From positions 2,786,205 through 2,850,204 of the forward strand of contig OZ022595.1 of NCBI GenBank assembly GCA_963669155.1: 64,000 nucleotides of DNA, in the 5' to 3' direction. Positions 8,651-53,021 of the stretch are shown one piece after another; the first letter of the stretch is position 1; the number at the start of each line of letters is the position of its first letter. The notes below the pieces were generated by a model. It did not search any database. It was given only the letters and a program-made list of their open reading frames with translations, and was not told the DNA's origin. The translations under genes were made by a program, and so were the position numbers. The stretch comes from Arbacia lixula (Eukaryota; Echinodermata; Echinoidea; Arbacioida; Arbaciidae).

Positions 8651-8732
8651 GTCACGGTGGCCGAGTGGTTAAGGCGTTGGACTCGAAATCCAATGGGGTT
8701 TCCCCGCACAGGTTCGAATCCTGTCCGTGACG
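8651..8732 (+). tRNA. tRNA-Ser (anticodon CGA)
   Basis: An 82-base cloverleaf without intron. The acceptor stem GTCACGG/CCGTGAC has discriminator G. The D arm holds box A (TGGCCGAGTGG). The anticodon stem TTGGA/TCCAA encloses CTCGAAA with anticodon CGA at 8684-8686. A long class II variable arm (GGGGTTTCCCC) is typical of serine tRNAs, and the T arm holds box B (GGTTCGAATCC). A TTTT at 8739-8742 can end Pol III transcription. It reads UCG codons. All arms pair, so it looks functional. Confidence 0.97.
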
Positions 8733-11910: not shown

Positions 11911-13950
11911 CTACTTCTTCGCCAGTTCCTTGACTTTTCTCCGGAACACCTTGACGGTGTCTTCATCTGACACGACGACGTGGCCCTCGGCGGAGAGACA
12001 CACATCGAAGGGCTCTCTGAAGGCCGTGGCGACACACGCCACGTACTTCCCCTTGTCGTCGTACATGTGCACGCCCTTCTCGCCGCCTCGCTCCTTGTGG
12101 ATGACGTAGATGTTGTTGTCGTCGTCGCAGCAGACTCCACTCGGCTTCAGCTTCCCGTGTTCGCCGTACGAGTCGACCGCCATCAGAAGCTTCCCTTCCT
12201 TCGTCATGATGCGGATCTTCTGCTTCCTCGGGCAGCTGACGATGATGCGATCACGGAGATCCGTGGCGATGTGGCTCGGGCCGACCACGGGGAGCGTCTT
12301 CAAGAGTGTGCCGTCGCTGTAGTGGAAGGTGATGACATTGCGCTTGCTGTCTCCAACAAGAATCCGGTTTCGCCGATCGACAGTGACGCATGAGAGCTCA
12401 ACGTCGAGCAACTTTGTGTGCTCTTCTTTGTTCACGGTCTCGAAGCGAAGGTAGAAGCGACCTTGCGGGTCATAGATGCGGACAAATCGCGATTTGTCAA
12501 CGGCCACGAAACGGCCATCAGGCAGGCAGGCGACGTCCTGTGGCATGGAGAGCTTCCCGTCAGGTTTCTTGTCGGAGTTCAGCAAGCAAACAAACTTCCC
12601 CTCCTTGTCCAGTACTTGCACGCGGTCGTTGCCCCAGTCCGCAACGATGGTGTGTCCGTCCAGCGACACCCCTACCCCACGGCACCAATCGAACTGACCT
12701 TCCTTGGACCCCGGAGCCCCGATCGTGGTCGCTAGCTCCCAAACAGGAGTCGTATCCTCACTCACCTCACTTTCCGACTCCGTCGATTCGCTCTTCCCAC
12801 CGTCCACCTCCTCCACTTCCTCCTGACCTTCCCCGCCGGTGATTTCCGCCACGTCAATGACGCTGAGATCCTCTGAAGGCAGAACGGGTCGCAGTTTCTT
12901 CAAGTCCGCGAGCCGAGTCCGCAGGGCGAGATCCAACGAGAGCAAGTGATAGTCGTCACCGAAATCAAGAACGCTTTCCCCTAGCTCAAAAGCAGTTGCG
13001 AGTTTTTCCAACGCCATCTCGATCCTATCAACATGCTCCTCGATTTTATCGTCATTTTTCTTCTCGCATAACGCGACGTTCCCTACATACCGCTGCTCCC
13101 TTTCATCCAGGTCGTCCTTCTCACCTTTGATGGCGTCTTTGATCTCGGTACGAAGCTGTTCCGCGCTCTCCTTCAGTGCCTTCCGAGTCTTCTCCAGGAT
13201 CTCCCACGCTCCGCGGAACTTCGCTGCTGTCTGTTGCGTCTCGCTAATCGCCGACTCTAGCTGCTGTTTCCTTGCCGATGCCGCTTCGCCAACCCCAATA
13301 CACCGATGCTCCGGCCCCTTGTGATACAGCACAACACAGTCTCCACATGCCAGTAAGCTGCACTTCTCGCAGAATGAAGATATCGGTTCCTTGTGCTCGC
13401 TGCATTGCTTTTTCACGCCATTCGTCTCGTTTACATCTGGGTCCTTTTCTTTCATCTTCACCCACTCCTCCATCGTGACGATGGTGTGATTGCGAAGCAC
13501 CTTAATGTTGTGGTGCGCCCTCAGACATCGCTTACACATGAACTCCCTGCAGTCCTGACAACGGCACGTGGCGACGCTCCCCTTCTCGCACGACGTACAC
13601 GTTTTCTCCGTCACGCTCGTGTCCGATTCTGATTCCGTGCTCGACTCCGCCTGATCGCCCAGCAACATCGACCTCATCATCCCGACCATAGTGTTGACCG
13701 CCAGACTGCTGGCCTTTGTCTTCACGGGGGACCCATCCTTGCAGAGGTCGCAGCGGAACTGTCCGGCATTCTGCTTCTGTTTTGTCTCTATGCAGTTCCG
13801 GCAGTAGGTGTGGAGACATGGCAACATCCGGGGATCTTCGTATTCGCGCTCGCACAGCGGGCACGTGGTGAATTCCTCCATGAAGTGGACGCTGTGCACG
13901 TCCGTCTCGGGACTCCCCGGGCAGTCGCCCTCCGAGATCTTGGCTGACAT
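11911..13950 (-). CDS. TRIM-NHL protein (RING, two B-boxes, coiled coil, NHL-type beta-propeller)
   Basis: A 679-aa complete frame from a true ATG. The RING finger has C30-C33-C45-H47-C50-C53-C67-C70, the C3HC4 pattern of ubiquitin E3 ligases. B-box 1 is at about 118-155 (C118, C121, C131, C134, C139, C142, H155) and B-box 2 at about 183-215 (C183, H186, C194, C197, C202, C205, H215). A charged coiled coil runs from about 222 to 330. An acidic Glu/Ser linker at about 374-400 leads to a C-terminal propeller (402-670) with repeated GV.V..DG..(V/I)ADWGN-type blades. The likely role is a cytoplasmic E3 ligase or RNA/protein scaffold, TRIM2/3/56/71-like in layout. It is one coding exon in GC-rich sequence unlike its AT-rich flanks. 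An acceptor sits just upstream, so the 5'UTR is probably spliced. Single-exon TRIMs are often lineage-specific expansions. The exact orthologue is uncertain. Confidence 0.93.
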   Translation of the reverse strand: MSAKISEGDCPGSPETDVHSVHFMEEFTTCPLCEREYEDPRMLPCLHTYCRNCIETKQKQNAGQFRCDLCKDGSPVKTKASSLAVNTMVGMMRSMLLGDQAESSTESESDTSVTEKTCTSCEKGSVATCRCQDCREFMCKRCLRAHHNIKVLRNHTIVTMEEWVKMKEKDPDVNETNGVKKQCSEHKEPISSFCEKCSLLACGDCVVLYHKGPEHRCIGVGEAASARKQQLESAISETQQTAAKFRGAWEILEKTRKALKESAEQLRTEIKDAIKGEKDDLDEREQRYVGNVALCEKKNDDKIEEHVDRIEMALEKLATAFELGESVLDFGDDYHLLSLDLALRTRLADLKKLRPVLPSEDLSVIDVAEITGGEGQEEVEEVDGGKSESTESESEVSEDTTPVWELATTIGAPGSKEGQFDWCRGVGVSLDGHTIVADWGNDRVQVLDKEGKFVCLLNSDKKPDGKLSMPQDVACLPDGRFVAVDKSRFVRIYDPQGRFYLRFETVNKEEHTKLLDVELSCVTVDRRNRILVGDSKRNVITFHYSDGTLLKTLPVVGPSHIATDLRDRIIVSCPRKQKIRIMTKEGKLLMAVDSYGEHGKLKPSGVCCDDDNNIYVIHKERGGEKGVHMYDDKGKYVACVATAFREPFDVCLSAEGHVVVSDEDTVKVFRRKVKELAKK

Positions 13951-13988
13951 GGTGCTGGATTCTGGCAGATTTCTAGCTTTGGTCTCAC

Positions 13989-13990
13989 CT
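13989..13990 (-). other. 3' splice site in front of the TRIM start codon
   Basis: The minus strand reads CCTCTATTCTTACAG and then GTGAGACC, 38 bases before the ATG. The pyrimidine tract and CAG make a good acceptor, implying a non-coding first exon further upstream (above 13990). The same bases could also be read as a donor (CAG|GTGAGA), but that would not fit the start codon downstream. Confidence 0.45.
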
Positions 13991-14447
13991 GTAAGAATAG
14001 AGGAAAAATTACATATTTATTATTTTCACGAAAAAAACATAAAAATGAGAATCCCCCCCCCCCCCCCCCTAAACAAAAAAAAATGATATAGTTTCCGGGA
14101 AAATATTACGTATAATATAACTTACGAAAAAAAAATCACAAAATGATTTTAACGAAAAATGTCAGAAATACATTTTTGTCACAAGAAAGCTAATACTACA
14201 CGGCAGTGATCAAAGACGCAATTTTAGGCGAAATGGGTGATATGAATTATCAGAGGCAGCAATGTTTTGTTACATGCATCTCAAATTTCGGAACTGCAAA
14301 ACTGACTGCTTGCAGAGATTGGCAAAACAGCCTCACATTTACGAGTACCAAAAGAAGAAGAATACAACACCTATTAGTGTAAAATTCGTAAAGTACATTA
14401 CAAAGGATTCCGGAAGAAGAGGCCACGATGATGATGTCATATTCACA
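13991..14447. other. AT-rich sequence upstream of the TRIM exon, with a poly-C tract
   Basis: A C homopolymer lies at about 14054-14069, next to A-rich sequence. No gene is seen. Confidence 0.5.
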
Positions 14448-35399: not shown

Positions 35400-36098
35400 T
35401 CATAATTGTACATAGAAAATCAGAGTTGCAATCACGACAGACCAGATCCCGATGTGCTTAGAACGATGCGCGCTTTTTGAAAACAATGTCTGTCCGGTGA
35501 CGGAAATCACGCTGGTGTTCAAATGTTCGGAGACCGTAAACGCCCATGGATCCTCAATCACGCAGACTACTGAGAAAGGTCCGTCTTCCCCCTGGTGATT
35601 ATTCTCAGTCGAAACCATTACGTCAATGAATTGAAGCAGAGAATTTTGCCAGATGTCAACGGCACGACACGCCACCAGTATATTGTGGTGGGTGTGAGAA
35701 CTGTTTGGGGTAAATTGGAGCCGATCTGGCAACATACGTATGCGAGGGTCCTGCATGGAGATCATCGGGGTGTTTGGCTGAAGGAAGGCACTAGCCATGG
35801 CGTCAGCAGTCTGCTGAAAAATCCATTGGATGCGAGGTAGTGGTCGGGACGTCACAGGACACTGGATAGAAATGACTGCGCCCTCCTCAACGGTACATGT
35901 GTTGTCATCATGTAGGGACAGTGCACAGGTGTAGTCATTTGTTAGATAATGCATCTTCTGGATATGGGTTTCCATTGTAGGGGACAGACAGGAGCGGTAG
36001 ATAGTGACATCATCTTCTATATCAAGTAACCACCGTTGCGGGCAGGTACAATTCAAATGGTTTCCCCGTAAGAAAATTTCGATCTGAAAGCGATGCAT
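35400..36098 (-). CDS. LRR C-terminal cap, Ig domain and probable GPI signal (downstream part of the LRR gene)
   Basis: This 232-codon frame lies in the same reading frame as the LRR frame upstream, separated only by TAA and one codon. It begins inside a last LRR and runs into a cysteine-rich LRR cap (LRGNHLNCTCPQRWL). An Ig-like domain follows (cysteine in ISIQCPV, tryptophan in RIQWIF, cysteine in ILVACRA). The very C-terminus is a hydrophobic run (GIWSVVIATLIFYVQL) after a small/basic stretch with no cytoplasmic tail, which suggests GPI anchoring or a bare TM. It is almost surely the 3' part of the LRR gene rather than a separate gene. Its first ATG is only the first Met after the stop. 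Confidence 0.8.
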   Translation of the reverse strand: MHRFQIEIFLRGNHLNCTCPQRWLLDIEDDVTIYRSCLSPTMETHIQKMHYLTNDYTCALSLHDDNTCTVEEGAVISIQCPVTSRPLPRIQWIFQQTADAMASAFLQPNTPMISMQDPRIRMLPDRLQFTPNSSHTHHNILVACRAVDIWQNSLLQFIDVMVSTENNHQGEDGPFSVVCVIEDPWAFTVSEHLNTSVISVTGQTLFSKSAHRSKHIGIWSVVIATLIFYVQL

Positions 36099-36101
36099 TG
36101 A

Positions 36102-38648
36102 TTAAGAACTTTTAGGTATAACACTTTTACTTATCTTTGTAAGATGATTGTTAGACAAGTCCAACTGTTTTAAAAACTGAAACATTGTGTAAATATTCAG
36201 ACTACATGTCAAACCTGGAAATCGTACCAGGTCATTGTCTGACAAATTCAGGTGTCTCAGAGGGTGGTGATTTAACCGTGTTGCAAAACATCCAGACAGA
36301 AACTTAATGCGATTATCATTTAGATATAAGAACCAAGCCTTCGGAAACTGTGCCGTAAATCTTGAAATATTGAATGTTCGCAATATATTGGCGCTGAGGT
36401 TAACATGATAAACATTAGGGCCTTCCCAATTAGGAATGTCCACCAGCCTGCTCTCTACAAAGCTAAATTCCGACGTTTTTGCCAGTACAACAAATTCTGA
36501 TATGTGAAAATGATACAGGAATACATTTCGCAAAATCAACGTACTTAAAGCGTTACCTGTCCCCTCTGATTGGACAGATCGTTCCGACATAATGCAGCTG
36601 CAATTATTTAGGTCAAGTTGGACATGTGCAAGGTTTAACCTCAGTCCCATAAAGCACATTATACTACCATAAACTCGAAGATTGTCAGCACCCTGAATGA
36701 AAAGTTTCCGTGGAACTGGCTTGACCAAATCTGTCATACAAGAGGGTTGAAATGAAGCGAGATCAACGTGTACAGTGTGTCCCTTGATAAGGGAACGGTC
36801 GATGCTAGAACGTGGCATATTATTTCCATTTATTTTCAAAATGTGCAGTTGTCTTAGTTGTGCAATATCTAGATTGTCAATGTTATTACCACTCAGATCA
36901 AGATGATATAGTGATGGAAACGATTGGGCGATTGTATTTGGAATGAATGTTATGCTATTGTCACCAAGGTTTAACGTGTTCAACATTTGAAACCCAATGC
37001 CTGAAGCTGGGAAGTTCTGTAGACATGTGCTTCGAAGAGACAGAATTTGTAGACTAGGGAGAAAGTAAAAGGCGTCATTTCCAATTACTACTATTCGATT
37101 ATTATCGAGAGTCAAGGTCAACAAGTTGGGAAGATAGGAGAATTCTGAGACATGTTCGATAACATTGTTGGAGAGATCTAGGCGGTGTAAGCTGAGTAAA
37201 TTATTAAACGACGTTGCATCAATTCTTGATATTGCGTTTTCCTGACAGTGAAGCGTTTGAAGATTGCGGAATCCTGTAAAAATAGATGCCATTCTTAGTT
37301 TGTTTCCATCCATTTCTAGATATTGAAGCCATGGCAGGTGTGAAAATGTATCTGTATCGAATCCTTCGATGTCATTCTTGGACAGATATATCGTAGATAA
37401 TTGCGGATTTGTTAGCTTTCCTATAATAGATGTTATGATATTTTCCCCCAGGTCTATCAGTACTAGCTTTGGTAAATCTAAAAAGTTGACAGCCCGCAAA
37501 GCCGTGATTTTGTTGTTACGCAAACTAATTCCGTTAATATGCTTGAGGCCATTGATATCTGGAATTGATCTTAACAAATTGTTGGACAATATGATGTAGC
37601 GTACGGACGAAATATTTCCTAATCCCTCTACGGTCGAGATTCGGTTAGATGAAAGATTGATGGTGGTCAGATATGTGTGGTTTACCAGGCGTGCACGATA
37701 GATGAGTCCATGTGTTATTTTCAAAATCTCAAGATTCGGGGCTCTTGCCAGAAGATTAGGCAATAAGGAATTGTTGGAGACACCACAGAAGTCGGTAAAT
37801 TTTAAGCTTGGAAAGTCGGGAAGTGCACTCTCATCAAAGCGGTAATTACTCTGATGTCTGACAATGACATTATCAAGAAGAGTAATGTCTTGAAGTGCGG
37901 ATATATTGTCGAGACGGTTTCCATCAAGTGAGATTGAACTAAGAGAGTCTGGGAGCGAGTGGTTGTCTATTGTTGAGATTCTATTAAACCTAAAATTGAT
38001 TGCAATGAGTTTCGGCAACAGGAACGTACCCTGGTGTATACGGCTAATACGGTTTTGATCTAAGTGCAAAAATTGAAGTTGTTCAAGTCCCACAAATGAC
38101 TGGTCGGTTACTGTTTCGATCAGGTTTCCTGTCAAATCAAGAAGAATGAGAAGCGGGGGTAACGTATTTCCTTCTATCTGACGCAGTTTGTTGAATGGAA
38201 TATATAGCTGCGTGAGGTTGGGTACACTTGATCCAAACAGAGGAGGGATCTCGTGTATGACATTATGATCTAATCTTAGCTTGATTAGCGATCGAAGACT
38301 GTGAAGTCCCGGAATTGCCTGCAGGTAGTTGTAAGTGATCAGAAGGGTTTGGACAGCTGGAAAGCGGAGAAAAACAGAATCGTCGATCGAGTTGATATCG
38401 TTCCCGATGAGATAGAGAACGATTTTGTTCGGATATATGAGTGGTAAACCATCTTGTACGGTATCGGGGCCATTGCCTCCCTCGAAATACGAGCTGACAC
38501 CATATACCCTAAAGCAATGGATTTCAGTGCCTAAGCGACCCACACAAGAACAGATCGGGCATAGGTCGACCACTTCATGCTTAGTGGAGTGAATCAACGC
38601 GAAGAGCAGGAAAAAGACCAATCTCCGTTTGGGATCTTCCCTCGCCAT
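36102..38648 (-). CDS. large leucine-rich-repeat receptor ectodomain
   Basis: An 848-aa frame from a true ATG. A signal peptide (residues about 1-24, with LVFFLLFALIH) precedes an N-terminal cysteine cap (C30, C33, C35, C45). More than 25 LRRs with the LxxLxLxxNxI pattern (for example LHRLDLSNNVI and LYHLDLSGNNI) run from about residue 75 to the end. It is an extracellular recognition protein of the Toll/LRR-Ig type without a TIR domain here. The frame stops at TAA (36104-36102), one repeat short of a cap. The cap, an Ig domain and a membrane anchor follow in the same frame at 35400-36098. Possible explanations are a nonsense allele, a sequencing error, readthrough or a pseudogene. A 39-nt intron (GTTATACC...TTTCAG) would bypass the stop but is very short. 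An acceptor (TTTTATCATACAG) ends ten bases before the ATG, so the 5'UTR is spliced. Confidence 0.88.
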   Translation of the reverse strand: MAREDPKRRLVFFLLFALIHSTKHEVVDLCPICSCVGRLGTEIHCFRVYGVSSYFEGGNGPDTVQDGLPLIYPNKIVLYLIGNDINSIDDSVFLRFPAVQTLLITYNYLQAIPGLHSLRSLIKLRLDHNVIHEIPPLFGSSVPNLTQLYIPFNKLRQIEGNTLPPLLILLDLTGNLIETVTDQSFVGLEQLQFLHLDQNRISRIHQGTFLLPKLIAINFRFNRISTIDNHSLPDSLSSISLDGNRLDNISALQDITLLDNVIVRHQSNYRFDESALPDFPSLKFTDFCGVSNNSLLPNLLARAPNLEILKITHGLIYRARLVNHTYLTTINLSSNRISTVEGLGNISSVRYIILSNNLLRSIPDINGLKHINGISLRNNKITALRAVNFLDLPKLVLIDLGENIITSIIGKLTNPQLSTIYLSKNDIEGFDTDTFSHLPWLQYLEMDGNKLRMASIFTGFRNLQTLHCQENAISRIDATSFNNLLSLHRLDLSNNVIEHVSEFSYLPNLLTLTLDNNRIVVIGNDAFYFLPSLQILSLRSTCLQNFPASGIGFQMLNTLNLGDNSITFIPNTIAQSFPSLYHLDLSGNNIDNLDIAQLRQLHILKINGNNMPRSSIDRSLIKGHTVHVDLASFQPSCMTDLVKPVPRKLFIQGADNLRVYGSIMCFMGLRLNLAHVQLDLNNCSCIMSERSVQSEGTGNALSTLILRNVFLYHFHISEFVVLAKTSEFSFVESRLVDIPNWEGPNVYHVNLSANILRTFNISRFTAQFPKAWFLYLNDNRIKFLSGCFATRLNHHPLRHLNLSDNDLVRFPGLTCSLNIYTMFQFLKQLDLSNNHLTKISKSVIPKSS

Positions 38649-42560: not shown

Positions 42561-44819
42561 TCCACCATCCTTTCACCATTTTCGATATTGCCACCATAAT
42601 CGTGATGAAATCAAAATCTTAAAAAAAAAAACCCTCATGTGTCCTCCACCGCCCTCCAATACACATTCGTCATTGTCTTTCAACTGCTTTATTAGGTATA
42701 TCTATCTCTCATGTGCCTCTGATTCGATTCAAACATTGCCCGAGGCATGCCCAATACAACAACAAACAACGTGAACATACAGGATACCCCGTCACGAAAA
42801 CTACGCCATTACGAAAGCAATATTTTGTAAGCAGAGGAGGGCTGCGTTGACACGTCATTTTCTGGGAGTAATTGCGTATGTCAGTGCAAATTACTGACAA
42901 GATTTTCGGACAACAGATGGCTAACGTCAGCTGCCTTAAACAGTAGTGACCAATTCCACCTCGCGCATTCGGACTCAGTTCAACTGCGACGACTAACGGT
43001 TTAGCTAATCCCCGAGTAGTACAGTGGCATATTGCCGAGATATTTTTATAAACAAATATGTTTCAAGTTATTGTTAGACATTTAGAAGTACAATATCATT
43101 ACAAATAAACATCATACTGAATTTAGTAAAGAAATATATTCAACAGTTATAGGAATAGAACCGTAATCTGACACAATTGACATGTAGTATAGAATAGGTG
43201 GGGGTACAGACGGGGAAAGGGATAGAGAGGAGTTAGGGAGAGAAGATATTTGTGTTGACTTGTGGGTCAATGTTTTTAAGTAACCTTCAACGTTATATTT
43301 CACTGCTAAATGCCGACGGTGAAACGTAGCTGGCGCTAGTCAGACTAGTGAGGATGGCTTCAGGGAGTACAATATAACGTGCTTATTGAAATGTTGACAT
43401 ATTTCATAAACAGCTTTGCTTCAATGTTCACTTTGGAGGCGGCGACGCACTCAGTACACACTCCGTTCTAGGCAAAAAGTATATCGTCTTTTAGACTGAC
43501 ACCTATGTAAACAAATCAATAGAAACATCACGTTTATGTAAAAATATAGTAATTTATTTTCACTTTTTCACAAATAAACAAGCATAATTCAATCTGTCGA
43601 ACTAACAATACAAAGACATAAATTTCGAATAAACACATTTTTGGTCATAGTAACATTATATTTCAGTTTAAATTGCATATATGGTAGATTGCAAATTCAC
43701 CATTATACTTTATAAAAAGTAACATTCGATGTAAGGAATAATGAAGGACCGATCCCTTCCCCCCTCCCCCCCCCTTTTTTTTTTTTTTTTACAATTTAAG
43801 AAGTGACTTTATTTATTTATTTCATTTATTAGTTTTTGTTTCAACAGTATCCTTTCTCAGCCCTTTTTAACCCTTTTCACTTAATACAAATCACAGTAAA
43901 TGTAAACAAAATAAATACAATAACAAAATAGTCATACATAAAGTCACATAACCTAATAAGTGTAAAAAATGAAAGAAATTAAAATCAATATCGTAATTTA
44001 TAAGAGTAATGGCCATGATATCTGTGGAGCACTCTGGCAGCAGAGAACTAAACTCATTTTGAGTATATACAAGTGTTTCTTTTAATATACACTTGCAAGT
44101 GAGAATTTCTGTCACTCTAAACTCAATACAACACAAATAAAGGAGGATCGACAGAAAAGGAGAGGTGTACCAAAAGGAAAAGAGAGAAGATAGGAAGATA
44201 AAATGCAGGACACAGAACGGCTTTATATCAAATCTATTAAACGACTAATAGGCTACTTTTAGAATGTAACACGTAATTATCAATTAATGATGAAGCGTTC
44301 AGTACAATTAAGCTATACATCTGTACTAGTTCACAAACCCAACTATCTTGTACTGCACTGATAATTTGCAATAATTTAAGACTAAAATAAAATGACTTCT
44401 ATACGGAAACACGCCATTTTGTCAGCGAAACTCAGAAGGCAGTATGAAGGACTAGAAATTTTTCGACTTGAAATTCCAAACTAAGATTTAAAGGAAACGA
44501 AAGGCCTTCATAGGAAGAGCTGATTTTTTTATCTGAAAATGAAAATCATCTAAGTTCGTAAACCTGACCAAATCGTAACTTCATATGACTTGGCTAATTT
44601 CTTTCACACTTTCGGCGATCCGTTTCTTGGATGCTTTTACCTTTACTCTCACTTATTTTCCTTTTACCTGCTTCGTACTAAGCTATTAAATGCTCATTGA
44701 TTTAAGGCACAAAATATGCACTACGGTATTGAGAGGGTTAGTCAACTTAAAAACTAAGATTAGTGAATACGGGCACGCACAATAGGGAATGTTGGAGTAC
44801 AGTTCAATTGGTCCAATCA
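42561..44819. other. AT-rich DNA 3' of the spliced cytokine-like gene
   Basis: A C/T homopolymer pair lies at about 43759-43791. Minus-strand AATAAA signals (TTTATT at about 43809-43830) or ATTAAA (44078) could end the transcript of the gene starting at 50525. No other gene is seen. Confidence 0.45.
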
Positions 44820-45002
44820 TCACGAAGCGGGGCAGTCACGTGACAGTCCGTCCAACGTTGATTGGCAAATCACCTGGGTACGAAGCCTCCATAAGAATGA
44901 TCTCACTGCGTCCAGGACTAAGCACCTACGACGTGATACGTTCGTGCAGGTTCCAAATGTCACGTCGACATGTTGTGCCGTGGTCAGTGGCAGGGGCTGG
45001 CA
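44820..45002 (-). CDS. candidate helical cytokine-like gene, last coding exon (helix D)
   Basis: Sixty codons and TGA, after a good acceptor (TACGTCCTCTTTGCAG). It joins the previous exon in phase 0. Residues 135-194 of the model hold a proline-rich C-D loop start (CQPLPL), a sequon at N155, and an amphipathic helix of about 25 residues (SRRRCLVLDAVRSFLWRLRT) followed by two further cysteines. The helix has the L-x-x-L-x-x-F/W-L-W-R layout seen in the D helix of CNTF/CLCF1-like cytokines. That resemblance is from memory of the family and is not an alignment score. Confidence 0.72.
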   Translation of the reverse strand, partial: CQPLPLTTAQHVDVTFGTCTNVSRRRCLVLDAVRSFLWRLRTQVICQSTLDGLSRDCPAS

Positions 45003-45413
45003 CTGCAAAGAGGACGTAAGGAACCGTTTAACCATAATTCATCTTTCTACATTCTATTTAAATAACTGGTTTAGTGTCATTCTTATCGTCCCACAGTGCA
45101 TTGCGCAGTGACATCCGGAGGATGTTTTGCAGGTGTATCCACCTTCGGTCTCAATCAGGTCTTCACTAGACCGAAATAATGTATGACTGGCAAACATATA
45201 CGCCTCATCATGGAACGATTTCTCCTTGCATGCGGTAAAGACATGTGTGCATCATTACACTAGTCCATGTACAGTATTACACATAATTTCCATAGCGTCC
45301 TTTCTTGTATGTTACAGAACACACCAGTGTTATATACATGGTTTGCATGTGGAAAAACAAACACAATGAAATGAAATTCGTAGATCTCAAAAGAAATCGT
45401 TATGCTAACTTAC

Positions 45414-45593
45414 CCAGCAATTTTCCACTGTCGCGTGTAAGCCGTTAGCTATCCGGGTGAAGTTAGCCCGTAAATTGATCAGGTCAGTCGACCAGGTTGA
45501 TCCCTCTTCCAGCTCAGCTATCACGTGAATCAGGAGGTGTTCAAAATAGCGGGCTTGCTTCGTGCTGTTGCCAAAGTTTACCAACGTGGCCGA
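45414..45593 (-). CDS. candidate helical cytokine-like gene, third coding exon (helices B and C)
   Basis: Exactly 60 codons between a strong acceptor (CTCTCCCCTTCTTTCAG) and a consensus donor (CTGG|GTAAGTTAG), phase 0 on both sides, open in one frame. It encodes residues 75-134. A helix-forming segment TKQARYFEHLLIHVIAELEE is followed by a short turn and then a second helix, WSTDLINLRANFTRIANGLH. Two N-glycosylation sequons (N83, N118) show that it is an extracellular protein. The exon ends in Cys-Trp. Confidence 0.78.
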
Positions 45594-46125
45594 CTGAAAG
45601 AAGGGGAGAGAGACAAAATAATTAAATTATAATGTATTTAGATATTCAAATAATTTAGATTTTAACTTTAATTTTCTTGAAGGGTATTTTCTAGACAAAT
45701 AGGTAAACATAGTGACTGTGAAAAACTACATAGAATAAATAATTTTGAAATTACTCGTTCAAATTGTTGACTGTAAGCAAAGTGACAATGGGAGTTCACT
45801 TTTTAGAGAAAATAAAGGAAATGACACATTTGATATTAATGCACATTTAAGAAGCTAACATACGACATGCAAATAAAGTGATCACACTCCCTCCTCCCGT
45901 AGAAGGTGCACACACTTTACTTGAGCAATTAAATGATAATTTCTTGATTAACATACATGTGTTATGTAGCTTGTTACGATCTAATACAAATAAATATGAC
46001 ATAAAATGACCAATTCTAACAGGTACACCTCGTACCTTTAGACCTGCAGACATTGATATATCAATTTTCATATGGTTTTATCATATATTACGTGATTTAC
46101 TATGTTACACTCTAATGATAATTAC

Positions 46126-46212
46126 CGAGGTTAGTGTGGTGAAAGTGCTCGGACAAGGAGCTATCGCAACTTCCTGTAGGCTCACTATGTCGTTCGCATC
46201 ACAGCTCATGTC
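46126..46212 (-). CDS. candidate helical cytokine-like gene, second coding exon (A-B loop)
   Basis: Exactly 29 codons between acceptor TTTTATTTTGCCTAG and donor CTCG|GTAATT, phase 0 on both sides. It gives residues 46-74 with two cysteines (C49, C65) and VSLQEVAIAPCPSTF, typical of a long inter-helix loop. The splice sites are good and the frame stays open through all joins. Confidence 0.72.
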
Positions 46213-46566
46213 CTAGGCAAAATAAAAAAATACACAAATACAAAATATAACAAAAATAGCAAAATAAGTTCGACTAAATAAACAAATATCAAATCCAATC
46301 CATGTATATTGATATCTATGTATACGAGTAAACTGCCTTACAAAATATTTTACCATTTTTATAAACAAGAGGGTACACAAATTACATATCATGCACCGAC
46401 AGGCATGTCTATGATATTTATAAAAATCTAAACTGCTCTGAGTGGTATGGACAAGACGGTAAACACTGGGATTCTAAACCATGCTATGATCCCGAGGCGC
46501 TTGCATAATTTGTTTTATCTCACCTCGGACTTATAGTCTAATGATGTCCCGAATAAACATTTTTTC

Positions 46567-46600
46567 ATATATATAAAATATATATATATATATATATACA
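46567..46600. repeat. (TA)n tract at the 5' junction of the Penelope-like element
   Basis: Alternating TA with one AAAA break. It ends where the retroelement frame begins. Confidence 0.95.
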
Positions 46601-46639
46601 TCAGATCATCAAGCTCAAGTCACTCAAGTAGTTACTGAT

Positions 46640-48304
46640 ATGATCACTAATGATGAACTCCCATCCAACGCAGTCAATCTTCTTCAGGAGAATCCTCGAT
46701 GTTCTACATTCTACATGCTCCCGAAAATCCACAAGGCTAATAATCCTGGACGCCCCATCGTATCTACCATCAGCTGCCCCACGGAACACATTAGCCAATA
46801 TCTCGACAGCGTTATGGCCCCTCTGGTAACCAAGTTGGATTCGTACGTCAAAGATACTACTGACGCCTTGCACATCCTCAGTAACTTCACCTTTCCAGAA
46901 AACGCATCCCATCGCCTCCTCTTCACCATGGATGTCTCTTCTTTGTACACCAACATCCCCTTGGAAGATGGACTGAAGGCATTCAAACACTACCTTGAGC
47001 TGTATCCTACAGACGACAGGCCGAACACCGTCACCCTCATGAGACTTGCCGAACTCGTCCTCACATTATCGTCTTTCAAGTTCGGTGACGACTTCTACAT
47101 ACAACAGAAAGGCGTTTCCATGGGAACCAAGATGGGACCTTCTTATGCTTGTCTGTTCATTGGTTTCATCGAAGAGCAAATGATCAGCAAGTTCCCTGGA
47201 CCTAAGCCTGTCCTCATGAAGCGGTACATCGATGATTTCATCGGCGCTTGCACGTGCTCCACTGAGCAACTCGAGACTTTCTTCAGTTACGCCAATAACT
47301 TTCACCCGTCCTTGAAGTACACACACAGTGTCTCTGATCATAGCGTCAACTTCTTGGATATCACAGTCAACATCACTCCTGTTGGTATCAGCACCGACGT
47401 TTTCTACAAGCCCACAGACTCTCATTCATATCTGAATTTTAAGTCCTCACATCCTCCCTCTTGCAAGAAAGCTATCCCGTACTCACAGTTCCTGAGGCTC
47501 CGCCGGATTTGCAGTGACACGCCCACCTTCACTCGGAGAGCCACACAGATGGAAAACTTTTTTTCCATCAGAGGATACCCTTCTCACGTGACAAATAATG
47601 CTCTCGAGAAAGCTGCCAAGACCAGCCGTTCCCAGGCTCTTCAACCCCGGGAAAAGTCATCTAATCCTGGCATCCCTCTGGTTCTGACGTACAACCAGAC
47701 TTCACGCCGCATCGCCAATATCGTCAAGGAGAACAACCACATCATTCAAGCTGACGAGACTACACGCCGCGTGTTTGGCACCAACCCCATCATGCCGGCA
47801 TTCCGGAGGGACAAGAACCTCCGTGATACTTTAGTGCGCTCGTCCCTTGCTACTTCGAATCCTACACATCCCGGTACATCACCTTGCAGGAGGCCCCGTT
47901 GCAAGACCTGTGCTCACATCTCGTCTTCTACTCAGATCCAGGGACCTAAGGGCAGTTGGAGAGTTCGTGGTAATTACACTTGTACCACCACGCACGTCAT
48001 CTACGTCATCCGCTGCGACAGATGCGACCATCTTTACATCGGGGAGACAAAGCGCAGACTGGCCGATAGGATAACTGAGCATCTGCGTTCTATCAAGCTG
48101 CGGACTCCCGGACTGCCTGTTGCTACCCATTTCAACCAGGGTGTCCATTCAACTGATGACCTGAAGGTGCAAGTAATGGCAGCATGTACTAGTGAAGGGC
48201 AGCGGAAGATACTGGAAGAACGACTGATCTTTCAGATGGGGACCCTTCAACCGATTGGAATGAACGTCTCATTCAGGAGCTTTCCTGTATCTATTCCTCA
48301 CTGA
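46640..48304 (+). CDS. Penelope-like reverse transcriptase with GIY-YIG endonuclease
   Basis: 554 codons from the first ATG; the frame extends about 13 codons further upstream to the TA tract, so the true N-terminus is lost. RT motifs in order are FYMLPKIHK (24-32) with GRPIVS (37-42), FTMDVSSLYTNI (95-106, catalytic Asp98), GVSMGTKMGPSYA (158-170), RYIDDFIG (195-202, catalytic Asp pair) and the PLE-typical FYKPTDSHSYL (255-265) with PYSQFLRLRRIC. A CxxxxC-x2-C linker (C416, C421, C424) precedes the GIY-YIG nuclease (453-530: VIYVIRC, LYIGET, RITEHL and a distal Glu in ILEERLI). The single open frame with all catalytic residues suggests a young insertion. It copies RNA at a nicked target in the nucleus. 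It lies antisense to the host gene. Confidence 0.93.
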   Translation: MITNDELPSNAVNLLQENPRCSTFYMLPKIHKANNPGRPIVSTISCPTEHISQYLDSVMAPLVTKLDSYVKDTTDALHILSNFTFPENASHRLLFTMDVSSLYTNIPLEDGLKAFKHYLELYPTDDRPNTVTLMRLAELVLTLSSFKFGDDFYIQQKGVSMGTKMGPSYACLFIGFIEEQMISKFPGPKPVLMKRYIDDFIGACTCSTEQLETFFSYANNFHPSLKYTHSVSDHSVNFLDITVNITPVGISTDVFYKPTDSHSYLNFKSSHPPSCKKAIPYSQFLRLRRICSDTPTFTRRATQMENFFSIRGYPSHVTNNALEKAAKTSRSQALQPREKSSNPGIPLVLTYNQTSRRIANIVKENNHIIQADETTRRVFGTNPIMPAFRRDKNLRDTLVRSSLATSNPTHPGTSPCRRPRCKTCAHISSSTQIQGPKGSWRVRGNYTCTTTHVIYVIRCDRCDHLYIGETKRRLADRITEHLRSIKLRTPGLPVATHFNQGVHSTDDLKVQVMAACTSEGQRKILEERLIFQMGTLQPIGMNVSFRSFPVSIPH

Positions 48305-48322
48305 TATACATGTATTTGTTTC

Positions 48323-48323
48323 C

Positions 48324-48363
<40 letters not shown>
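48323..48363. repeat. (CT)n tract
   Basis: CT repeat just 3' of the retroelement stop codon, followed by T/C-rich sequence to about 48490. Confidence 0.95.
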
Positions 48364-48364
<1 letters not shown>

Positions 48365-48912
48365 TCTTCTCTCTGCGCTCCTCCACAGTTGTTCTTTTTT
48401 TCTCTTCTTCTTTTTTTCTCTTTTTTGTTTATCCCTTTCTCACGTTTCTTTTCCCTTTCTTTCATCTTCTTCTCTTTCTTCTTCTTTTCATTCTCCGACT
48501 CTGAATTGTGAACGTTTTTATATCTGATATATTCTTCTCTCTCTTTTGACTCTTTGTCTTATTATTGATTTTAAATTTTCTCTCATTTTTTTCTCTAGGA
48601 ATTTTACCTAATGTCGGCCAGTGGATTTTGTTTACTGTAATGTAGTATATGCAACTTTACGTAACTACTTGTGATTGTTTTTTGCAGGATCCCTAATGAG
48701 TCTACCGCCTAATTTTGATTTATTTTCACTTTTTTTTTGTGCAGGAACTTTACATCATGTCGATATGTGGATTTTACTCTATAATTTGGTTTACCTATTT
48801 TTACGCCTATCTTGTACTACGTAACAATATGTAATAAGCGCCCCTAGTTTCAGTTTAAAATACGCTCGTTGTACGCAATCATGTTTTTGTGTAAATTGTT
48901 CAGTCATTCATT

Positions 48913-48937
48913 CTTGATAAAGGTCTATGACCGAAAA
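48913..48937 (+). ncRNA. hammerhead-ribozyme-like core in the Penelope-like element
   Basis: CTTGATAAAGGTCTATGACC followed by GAAAA. This has a TTGATAA box, a 4-bp stem II (GGTC/GACC) with a TAT loop, and GAAA, the order CUGANGA-stem II-GAAA of a hammerhead. Two positions of the conserved box differ, so cleavage activity is doubtful. Penelope-like elements are known to carry hammerhead motifs, and the position in the 3' part of the element fits. Confidence 0.4.
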
Positions 48938-49020
48938 TTCGAATAATTTTTCTTCTCCGGCGTTTCATTTAATTTGTTTGTCTTCACCTAGTAATCAGCG
49001 CCATCGCATCCTCTATTCTT

Positions 49021-49022
<2 letters not shown>

Positions 49023-49053
<31 letters not shown>
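49023..49053. repeat. (TA)n tract at the 3' junction of the Penelope-like element
   Basis: Alternating TA, about 30 bases. Confidence 0.95.
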
Positions 49054-49055
<2 letters not shown>

Positions 49056-49547
49056 TTTTTATATGAACACTGGAGCAAACCTCACCTTCCTTCCCATTTA
49101 CCCAACAGCACTAATTTTACGGTGAATTCATTATTTTGCGCACGTTTACCATTGTCATGAGTGTACACGCTTTGCGAAATGCTTGTCTTGAAAGAGTATC
49201 AGGACGACAACAATTGGCGACTATGGCAATCTTTACGATAAATAATTGTATGCACACACGTCCATAGACTCTCACGACACAAGCTCTCTGCCATTGATGA
49301 ATGCATATTCATTGAAGAAAAAGTGCTACATTGAAAGTTCAATAGTAAATTGATGGTACTGTGGTCTCATTTAACCATGACATTACCATGCCTTGAAAAC
49401 CCCATTGGTTTACAACACATCTTCTTGCCATTGGTAATACAAGGGTTAATGGAAGGATGGTCAAATCTATGTCACGACTTTCAACCAATCAGATAACAGC
49501 ATTCTTCAATGAGGTAGATTAATAAGCAAATAAGGGTGAGGGTGATG

Positions 49548-49656
49548 GGACGAACTATCACTTCCGAGGCGATCTGGATGTAGCTATCTTTCCGAAGCGC
49601 AGCTGAGGAAAGATAGCGTATACATTCAGATCGCCGAGGAAGTGATAGCTCGTCTC
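49548..49656. repeat. long hairpin
   Basis: Left arm GACGAACTATCACTTCCGAG, then GCGATCTGGATGTAGCTATC and TTTCC, pairs with a right arm starting GGAAAGATAGCGTATACATT and ending TGATAGCTCGTC. Each arm is about 45 bp with a 13-base loop. Flanking CCAATCA(G/T)ATA(A/G)CAGCATT occurs as a direct repeat at about 49484 and 50029. This is probably a non-autonomous DNA element of about 570 bp. Confidence 0.6.
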
Positions 49657-50379
49657 ATTGCTTGAAACCAAAAGTTGATTATTTGCTTTATATTCCACAT
49701 CTGAAACCAACTATCTATACCAAAAATGATACTTTGACGTAAAAAGGTAATGTTTACTTATTTCCATAACCCCGAGCCGCTGCCATGGGGAACACGCGTT
49801 AGGAAGCGCATTAGGACGCGCGTTAGGACGTGTTAGATGTCAAGTGATAGTCCGAGTGTAACGCACTTTTATTTCGCGCGTACCCAAAATATTAATCACG
49901 CATTATGACTGTGAGGAGTGAAGAGATCAGCGAAACCAAAAAGTACTATCACCTAGAGTGTAACGAAGTTTTATTCTCAGGTGATCTGATAGGAAAAACT
50001 ACGCCTCATCACGTGATCAACTCTTGACCAATCATATAGCAGCATTATTAGTATGTGGAATATAACCAATATATAATGACCAATGAAGTGGTAAAGATGA
50101 GTGAAGAAGAGGAAGTATTGGTAGGAAATATGGGAAACCACATTTTGCGTTCACGATCACGCAGATTGATTTTAAATGATAATAGCCTACATGTATTTCC
50201 GCAATTTCTTCGTTTATCTGTATTTGAATATGCACGCTAGTCAAGTATAATTCACATGCTTATTTGCAAAGAGAAGGAGAACCATAGATATAGAGAATGT
50301 TAAAGAACAGAGGAAGAGAGGGGAGGGGGGAGGTGACGGTCGAAGAGAAAAAAAACATGATTTTCTTTCTGGAACTTAC

Positions 50380-50525
50380 CTTGAAAAGCCCTCGTGCAAG
50401 ACTGTCAGCTGTCGATGCTTCTGATGCACTCATCGCCCGGGCGACTACGGGCGGGCAAGTGGCTGGGAGAGGGTTTCCCATCACGCAGCCTCCCAGCATA
50501 CACACACGCAGCATAGCTAAACCAC
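50380..50525 (-). CDS. candidate helical cytokine-like gene, first coding exon (signal region and helix A)
   Basis: The coding part runs from ATG at 50514 to a consensus donor (TTCAAG|GTAAGTTCC), 45 codons, phase 0. A short hydrophobic N-terminus (MLRVCMLGGCVMG) could serve as a signal peptide, though a weak one. It is followed by a first cysteine (C20) and an amphipathic segment (VVARAMSASEASTADSLARG) taken as helix A. A likely acceptor (TATTCGAACAG) ends at 50526, so the start could also be in an exon further upstream. The frame above the ATG begins only with TTG. The assembled protein is 194 residues with nine cysteines after the signal region and three sequons. All three introns between coding exons are phase 0, the rule for helical cytokine genes. 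It could alternatively be another small secreted helical factor. Confidence 0.62.
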
Positions 50526-50725
50526 CTGTTCGAATAGACAAGTATACACGTTGTGATACCGAGCACTGTATATGACCCGATCATATCCGCCTCCTCCGCA
50601 TGCAGAGCATGCGCGCGCATCCCCACATGCGTTACTATAACCCGGTATGAGAAACTCCCACAAGCATGGTACCCGGATGTTTTGGTTTATCGGAAGTGGT
50701 TTGATTTTTTCCCCTTTCTACTTAC
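50526..50725 (-). other. possible 5'UTR intron of the cytokine-like gene
   Basis: A consensus donor (TTATG|GTAAGTAG) at 50725 and the acceptor ending at 50526 define a 200-base intron. The upstream exon ends in ATG. Joined to the next exon it would read ATG-GTG-GTT-TAG, a three-codon upstream frame, so it is more likely untranslated. Confidence 0.35.
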
Positions 50726-50726
50726 C

Positions 50727-51063
50727 ATAACTGGAAAACAATCCGGAAACCGGAAAATTCAGAATAAGGAACTTCCGTAGTCAATATATCGGAAGATATG
50801 TAAAGGTTGCCAAATGTAGGGAGCCACTATACGCGAATATGCGATCTGGTAAGAAAGTGATTTATTTTCTTTTTTTTTCAGAAGTTAAGGCGAATAAATA
50901 TTAGTTAAAAATGTATAATTTTTTACGTCAGGAGACACTGGTATGTTTTTTTTTTTCTCAACGAAAACGTGATCTATATTTGCCCTTTCAGTTTAATTGG
51001 ATTTGTTTAAATGCAATATAGGGCCTTCCCCTTCGTAGTCCGGATACTGAATTAAAAGGAATG
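50727..51063. other. upstream flank of the cytokine-like gene
   Basis: Probable promoter region for the minus-strand gene. No TATA box is clear. A donor-like ATGCGATCTG|GTAAGA on the plus strand near 50850 might mark a divergent transcript but has no other support. Confidence 0.3.
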
Positions 51064-51322
51064 TTACAATTAGAACCATGGTCGCTGGATACAAGTACTT
51101 ATTATATACACATATGTGCAACATCTCCACTCCCTAAGGAGTAATCCTTGCTACACGATATCGATGCTGGGTTAAGACTACCAGGTACCCATTAATATAC
51201 TCTTGGGTGGAGAGTAGCAATGTATCTTGCTAAAAGACACAAGCCATGGGTGGGATTGAACCTGGGACCTTGAGATTTCAAGTCACAGTTCAGAACCACT
51301 ATACCACGACACTTCGCACGCA
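51064..51322 (-). mobile_element. tRNA-derived SINE, copy 2
   Basis: Reverse complement of the family seen at 32642-32985. Read on the minus strand it has GTGTCGTGGTATAGTGGTTC, then CTTGAAATCTCAAGGTCCCA and GGTTCAATCCC (box B), followed by the shared CTCTCCACCCAAGAGTATAT body and a GTATCCAGCGACCATGG 3' part. Confidence 0.75.
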
Positions 51323-53021
51323 CGATAATAAGATGTATGTTCAAGTTACAAGAACATTAGTTCTAAAAGATATCATGTTTGAATTGAAAATTGTTGATTT
51401 AATTTAGTGTTTGATTGGTAAGAAGAAAGAAGCAAGCAACTTATATTTTCTATTGAGATAAACAATTGTGAACGTCTTTTGCAAACTAGTCAAGAATGCT
51501 TTCTTTAATATACTAGATTTACATCTGGATATGATGAAAGGGATTGCAATTGGTCTTAGTATTGCAAATGACAAGTATTTCTATATTGGTTCAATCATTA
51601 CTTCAGAACTGATTACAATATAGCAATTATTACATTATGAAGAATTTCCTAGGCAATGAGTTTGATTCAATATCTATGCTTCCTAGTTTATAAACTGATG
51701 TAGAACTCTATTATACTGTAAAATAAATTGTCAAAAACGCGGAAATAATTAACACACTATTAACATTGTGTTACACACTCAAAGAGGCCGTATTATAATG
51801 GGAAATTGATATTGTTATTATTATTATCATTGTATCAGAATTAGACTGCAGAATTAGAATGCTATATATTCCAAAAGCGGTAAATCTTTTTTGAAATATC
51901 TAACTTTTTAGCTTTTAAAATATTCAAAAATTCAGCCTGTTTAACTCTCTCCTTCGAATTTCAAACGAGAGTATGGGAAATTCAATACTTCGTAAGCAAT
52001 TAGAACGCACCAGTTTTAAACAATGATATGCATTCAAATATCTGGTATTAAATGGCTTGTCGCAAAAAAAAAACACGCATCGTTTTATATAATGATTTTA
52101 GGAAAAACAAGAATTGCCATTTAAACATACAAACCAATCAAAAATTGACATGTAAAATGATATGTAAAAGCGTAGTATTTGACACAATATGAATGATATA
52201 TGTATATAGATATATAGACAACAAAAAACATCTATGTATTGATAATTGAAAGGGAGACAATTAAATTGGTGGATACATAGAACGAAAGATTGATTAATAT
52301 AAAAATAGATAAGTAAATGCACGCTTTATAATCTTGAAATTTGTATAAATTTTGTAAAGGCGGTTGAGGCAACACGCTTTTTACTGATATAAACATATTA
52401 GTTTAAGATATATGCATCATATACATCAACAAATAACTTTTTGCTATGAGTTTAAATGTATAGATTGAATATGCAAAAAACTTACACAGAGCTCGAAGCA
52501 GTCTGATGACAGCAAATCCCGATGCCAAATTCATAGTTGCAAATTTTAATCTATACTCTACAATTGTAGGTATTCAGAAAGAGTAGTATAAAGCTAAGCG
52601 ACAAATACAACTTAGAGAACTATTCAACAAAACAAATTATATGTCTGTCTCAAAGTTAATGCTCGGTATATATACACAATTTGGTTGCAAACAAACAAGT
52701 GTCACTTGATTAATTTTCTTGAAATCCTACCTTGTATCCAAATTTGGAACAGAGCTAGTGGGTGGACGGGGAATGGTGGGTTGCCCGATAGACTTATAGT
52801 TATGGTCTATTCGGGTGTTTGGCTCTTACCGGTTCGAGTCCATATAGCGTGGGCGCTTCGTCGCCGGACTAAAATTCTAATCAGTAAAATTAACCGAGTT
52901 AACTCGAAAAAAGCATTGTTTATTATTTTTTCATGGAGTGCCCCCCCCCCCCCCCGCTGGTGGTTTATATGTATGTCTGCAAGCGAGAGAAAGACAGAGA
53001 GAGAGAGAGAGCGAGAGGGAC

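Follow-up and report, generated by a model that had tools for sequence, protein, structure and literature searches.

A predicted four-exon gene of the sea urchin Arbacia lixula with an IL-4/IL-13-like exon plan and a possible helical-cytokine product

Do invertebrate deuterostomes have genes built like those of the vertebrate helical cytokines? Interleukin (IL)-4 and IL-13 of homeotherms, and the IL-4/13 genes of bony fish, shark and amphibian, are described with four coding exons and three phase-0 introns (PMC4905449, in excerpt), and the same exon number and phases are printed for sea bass (PMC5440397, in excerpt). According to PMC13203501 (in excerpt), IL-6-family ligands were found only in vertebrates and IL-6-like ligands are not found in most invertebrates; the same paper places an IL-6-receptor-like protein of an echinoderm, Strongylocentrotus purpuratus, in its tree. 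Contigs annotated as IL-6 receptor showed raised expression in treated sea stars in a study of sea star wasting disease (PMC4503460, in excerpt). Together with the reported sea urchin protein, they suggest that echinoderms may have a receptor suited to a ligand of this kind. Here, we describe a spliced gene on the minus strand of a 64,000-nucleotide stretch of the Arbacia lixula genome (GenBank assembly GCA_963669155.1, contig OZ022595.1, positions 2,786,205 to 2,850,204)—hereafter the window, within which all positions are numbered from its first letter. The gene is very probably real. Our best explanation, which we put at somewhat under an even chance, is that it is a probably fast-evolving echinoderm gene for a small secreted glycoprotein, folded as an up-up-down-down four-helix bundle and acting as a helical-cytokine-like ligand.

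A spliced gene on the minus strand

Once joined, the minus-strand segments 50380-50525, 46126-46212, 45414-45593 and 44820-45002 form a 194-codon open frame, which runs from an ATG at 50512-50514 (minus strand) to a TGA at 44820-44822 (minus strand), is split over exons 1-4 as 45 + 29 + 60 + 60 codons, and is interrupted by three introns, all of them GT-AG and all in phase 0 in this predicted gene. An earlier note on this DNA had claimed four exons with consensus splice sites, phase-0 introns and a product of about 194 residues, and joining the exons reproduced all of these. The parts of the gene are as follows, with each codon score ranked against sampled noncoding segments.

50380..50525, minus strand: exon 1, coding 50380-50514 (45 codons), encoding a brief hydrophobic N terminus and then the putative helix A; codon score 9.7, top 0.04%; picked by the gene finder
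46126..46212, minus strand: exon 2 (29 codons), which places Cys49 and Cys65 in a putative A-B loop; codon score 6.4, top 0.2%; picked by the gene finder
45414..45593, minus strand: exon 3 (60 codons, 180 base pairs), predicted helical hairpin B + C with sequons N83 and N118; codon score 12.8, top 0.03%
44820..45002, minus strand: exon 4 (60 codons and the TGA), putative C-D loop, helix D and cysteine-bearing tail, with sequon N155; codon score 9.6, top 0.07%
50383..50445, minus strand: putative helix A (residues 24-44), rich in Ala and Ser; its helix propensity is high, its amphipathicity not significant
45507..45590, minus strand: predicted helix B, residues 76-103, from AlphaFold2 on exon 3 alone; heptad p=0.064 (residues 85-104)
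45417..45488, minus strand: predicted helix C, residues 110-133, from AlphaFold2 on exon 3 alone; heptad p=0.0005 (residues 108-132)
44850..44933, minus strand: predicted helix D, residues 158-185, low confidence, from AlphaFold2 on exon 4 alone; heptad p=0.78 (residues 156-180)
44642..44647, minus strand: nearest poly(A)-signal-like hexamer, the weak variant AGTAAA, 175 bases past the stop; the first canonical AATAAA starts at 43830

The exons stand out from their surroundings in both base composition and codon usage. Their G+C contents are 0.59, 0.52, 0.51 and 0.55 for exons 1-4, against 0.29-0.39 in the introns and flanks (leaving out a retroelement in intron 1, at 0.50). Codon log-odds were trained on 2230 codons from four other open reading frames (ORFs) of the window—a G-protein-coupled receptor (GPCR), a TRIM-like, a leucine-rich repeat (LRR) and an immunoglobulin (Ig)-like ORF—with the candidate exons excluded. 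By this measure every exon, in its own frame, scores within the top 0.03-0.19% of ~17,000 sampled noncoding segments. In the masked window, 1014 internal exon-frames are open; none scores as high as exon 3, and only three score as high as exon 2.

We also ran a self-written gene finder that adds to the codon scores a set of general splice-site matrices, which were not fitted to Arbacia lixula. With the other window ORFs masked and an intron penalty of 15, it returned exactly these four exons, with a score of 34.2. The best rival reached 12.3 when the four exons were masked as well, the reversed window gave 12.3 and 14.2, and 10 simulated sequences of 64 kb, scored on one strand, peaked at 7.1. 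Lowering the penalty to 12 brings the score of the four-exon model to 43.2, and the finder then returns that model by itself only in a run confined to about 43600-51600; the window with the four exons masked gave 21.8 (8 exons) and simulated sequence at most 12.3. Both ends of the gene are less certain than the gene itself. Within the window we found no tandem paralogues, the translated self-search giving only E 0.044 or worse beyond the exons themselves. Four direct-repeat families of at least 40 bases lie within 38600-64000, all simple repeats and their flanks, and no enrichment of the kind expected for a cytokine-type AU-rich 3' end was found downstream of the gene.

A predicted helical, possibly secreted product

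The predicted protein has sequons at N83, N118 and N155 and 11 cysteines (residues 5, 10, 20, 49, 65, 133, 135, 153, 161, 180 and 191), nine of them beyond the brief hydrophobic stretch with which it opens; counting positions confirmed the nine further cysteines and three sequons first noticed in the sequence. This combination fits an extracellular protein. The N terminus has a hydrophobic core, VCMLGGCVM from residue 4, with a mean Kyte-Doolittle value of 2.24, which makes a weak signal peptide as judged by hydrophobicity; the uncertain 5' end may explain this weakness. Among 21 candidate upstream leader exons in phase 1, none offers a better hydrophobic core. An overlapping frame at 50405-50584 (minus strand) opens with MIGSYTVLGITTCILVYS, which by eye is more signal-like than the start of the model but is out of frame with it.

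Is the product helical? The putative helix A segment (residues 24-44) has a mean helix propensity of 0.33 compared with 0.58 for the whole chain, lower values being more helical. A heptad test, in which the heptad contrast is compared with within-segment shuffles, gave p=0.0005 for segment C (108-132), whose heptad core is L112, L115, F119, I122, L126 and T129, and a borderline p=0.064 for segment B (85-104). Combined by Fisher's method, the four segments together give p=0.006. The test was picked after a hydrophobic-moment test had failed, and its p values deserve a discount. Applied to 22-mers of other proteins in the window, it reached p<0.05 in 0 of 41 for the GPCR, about 10% of 60 for the TRIM-like protein and 0 of 76 for the LRR protein.

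Exons 3 and 4 were also modeled singly with AlphaFold2, as contiguous reads without an alignment and without control fragments. Exon 3 alone forms a two-helix hairpin with a short turn (exon residues 2-29 and 36-59), at a mean predicted local distance difference test score (pLDDT) of 69.9. Exon 4 alone has no helix of at least four residues up to residue 23 and then a helix at residues 24-51; its mean pLDDT is only 54.2, with 66, 72 and 54 in the blocks that the helix spans. Of the topology that the earlier note had proposed, the short B-C turn fits the predicted exon 3 hairpin, and a long C-D loop followed by helix D fits the exon 4 model, at that low confidence. Overall, computation supports the gene model, its intron phases, the exon 3 hairpin and, weakly, the exon 4 helix. 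From here we infer the rest: secretion, the bundle, the disulphides, a receptor and a function. The glycoprotein would be secreted and fold as an up-up-down-down four-helix bundle, with disulphides that would pin both long loops and the C terminus. By analogy, such a ligand may cross-link class I (gp130/IL-6-receptor-like) receptor chains and switch on JAK-STAT in target cells such as coelomocytes.

Neighboring genes, relatives and rival explanations

Other features of the window are as follows.

46640..48304, plus strand: Penelope-like retroelement ORF, 554 amino acids, uninterrupted, within intron 1 on the opposite strand and separate from the gene; it matches GIY-YIG (E=1.4e-4) and the reverse transcriptase profile RVT_1 (E=1e-6), each match falling slightly short of the Pfam gathering score
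1691-3106, minus strand: rhodopsin-type GPCR ORF, 471 amino acids, 60% identical to proteins from sea urchins that bear the name probable G-protein coupled receptor 21
8651-8732, plus strand: tRNA-Ser (anticodon CGA), from ARAGORN and Rfam
11911-13950, minus strand: TRIM-like ORF, 679 amino acids, matching RING, B-box and NHL repeats; the block around it is rich in G+C (0.566 in 12001-14000)
35400-36098, minus strand: Ig-like ORF, 232 amino acids, with immunoglobulin-domain matches under the Pfam cut-off
36102-38648, minus strand: LRR ORF, 848 amino acids, with leucine-rich repeats

The open ORF of the retroelement suggests that its insertion is fairly recent. Judging by their coordinates, the Ig-like ORF is in frame with the LRR ORF, with one stop codon between them, and 35400-38648 (minus strand) can be read as one receptor-like LRR-Ig gene that contains either an in-frame stop or an intron that escaped notice.

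Does the candidate gene have recognizable relatives? With a cut-off of E 10, neither the spliced chain nor exon 3 or exon 4 matched any Pfam family, the cytokine profiles included. Neither the PDB sequences nor a collection of 5.8 billion proteins, which includes echinoid proteins, yielded a relative by sequence. In viral contigs searched with exon 3, 10 stretches fitted the pattern and none was confirmed. The absence from the protein collection is weak evidence, because even the neighboring GPCR has its nearest relatives there at only 60-61% identity (60% in Lytechinus pictus, 60% in Diadema antillarum and 61% in a third protein; the remaining 19 of its 22 matches are far weaker, with a best E of 1e-18 and 22-33% identity), and a word-based search could miss a fast-evolving ligand. 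Taken by itself, the similarity of the GPCR points to an echinoderm as the probable source of the DNA, within the echinoids or near them but not close to either named species.

How, then, should the gene be read? The chief rival to a helical cytokine is a real secreted cysteine-rich protein with another fold: a small helical protein of some other kind (e.g., a lineage-specific immune effector, a carrier or a hormone-like molecule) that shares only exon phases and some helices with cytokines. We give it a substantial chance, though one well short of even. It would account for the failure to match any cytokine family, for the nine cysteines, for the undistinctive helices A and D and for the weak model of exon 4. 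Its case also draws on the fact that three phase-0 introns are unremarkable by themselves: about half of animal introns are in phase 0, and so roughly 1 in 10 four-exon genes would have three of them. With phase alone being weak evidence, the weight rests on the match of exons to secondary structure, and here the rival fares worse, as the predicted division into a short exon 2, a two-helix exon 3 and a loop-plus-helix exon 4 is the one printed for IL-4.

The phase statistics are one of several observations that weigh against a cytokine or against the gene model beneath it. The hydrophobic moment is significant for none of the four segments (p 0.08 to 0.89; 0.08-0.09 for helix A), and the heptad test is null for D (156-180, p=0.78) and A (22-46, p=0.96); of the four amphipathic segments claimed at the outset, C is upheld by the heptad contrast, B is borderline, and A and D find no backing. 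No sequence similarity to IL-4/IL-13 is detectable in the Pfam and PDB searches, and the hosts of those cytokines are vertebrates. An antisense frame of exon 4 scores 10.8, more than the 9.6 of its sense frame. The gene-finder penalty of 15 was adopted only after lower penalties over-chained: at 12, the whole masked window yields 16 exons glued together with a score of 62.9, and one reversed control, likewise with 16 exons, comes to 40.2, near the 43.2 of the model; leaving the other ORFs unmasked brings over-chaining at each of the penalties 6, 12 and 15. The purple sea urchin, moreover, is said to have no apparent cytokine receptor signalling system (PMC3296744, in excerpt). The original proposal of a helical cytokine therefore stands in part, with the gene, its all-phase-0 layout and the pieces from exons 3 and 4 fitting it, and with the missing sequence relative, the undistinctive helices A and D and the weak signal peptide telling against it. 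The cytokine reading is plausible, at a little less than an even chance.

Two other explanations concern the gene model rather than the fold. One unlikely case is that the exons, though real, belong to a larger gene or one with different ends, with a separate upstream signal-peptide exon or with exon 4 spliced onward at the donor next to 44874. The gene-finder runs at penalties 6 and 12 do make exon 1 internal, entered in phase 1, and exon 4 ended at 44874 in these runs and also at penalty 15 with the other ORFs unmasked; the weak N-terminal signal peptide and the better signal-like MIGSYTVLGITTCILVYS upstream, though out of frame, could be taken the same way. However, the low-penalty runs also join up sequence that has nothing to do with the gene, and they behave likewise in a reversed control. 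At penalty 15 on the masked window, and at penalty 12 in the region of about 43600-51600, the finder ends at the model's own ATG and stop, and none of the 21 upstream phase-1 leaders improves on the hydrophobic core. A chance chain of open segments with no gene at all is very improbable. Such a chain would agree with the lack of a homologue and of any transcript seen, with the reversed control that comes near the model at penalty 12 and with the antisense frame of exon 4 that slightly outscores the sense frame, but it would have to produce four separate exons that stand out in G+C content and codon usage and agree in phase, a score of 34.2 where the penalty 15 controls reach at most 14.2, and an exon 3 equaled by none of 1014 open exon-frames.

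Comparison with known cytokines

Which known cytokines does the candidate gene most resemble? The earlier note had likened its last helix to the D helix of CNTF/CLCF1, a likeness that the profile and PDB searches do not support and that we dropped (no pairwise alignment with CNTF/CLCF1 was made). CNTF has two coding exons and CLCF1 three, against four here, and the exon layout of IL-4/IL-13 fits better. Class II cytokine genes (IL-10/interferon-lambda) have five coding exons, all in phase 0; the present gene has four at penalty 15, and a further exon past the donor next to 44874 is conceivable.

Like IL-4/IL-13, the predicted gene has four coding exons and three phase-0 introns, and its predicted pieces are divided among the exons as printed for IL-4, with a short exon 2, two helices in exon 3 and, at low confidence, a loop plus a helix in exon 4 (PMC4905449, in excerpt). 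Its exon 3, at 180 base pairs, compares with 126-177 base pairs in tetrapod IL-4. The product is longer, at 194 amino acids versus 142-153 for the salmonid proteins, and has nine cysteines past its start versus four to six in those proteins. The product may be a genuine echinoderm member of the class I helical cytokines, with the IL-4/IL-13 gene plan of four exons and all-phase-0 introns, a reading to which we give a substantial chance, though less than an even one. If it were true, short-chain-like cytokine genes would be older than the echinoderm/chordate split and their gene plan could be traced to the deuterostome ancestor, the IL-6-receptor-like proteins of echinoderms would have a candidate ligand specific enough to test, and gene structure combined with predicted fold could reveal ligands that sequence search misses.

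An IL-6-like molecule of the sea star Asterias forbesi was reportedly described by Beck and Habicht (1996, as a reference-list entry). Among the papers listed in searches of the open-licence PMC literature, no title or abstract opening reports a sequenced echinoderm helical cytokine. The nearest comparisons among invertebrates are made by description only. Amphioxus GHl is a divergent type-I helical cytokine of 208 amino acids, likewise from an invertebrate deuterostome and with low similarity to its vertebrate relatives (PMC9010856, in excerpt); unlike the gene described here, it comes from a cephalochordate, was cloned from complementary DNA, and had its protein tested. The Unpaired ligands of Drosophila, although from an arthropod, offer a parallel for the proposed signalling, as they activate JAK-STAT in an invertebrate through Domeless, an IL-6-receptor-like receptor (PMC13203501, in excerpt).

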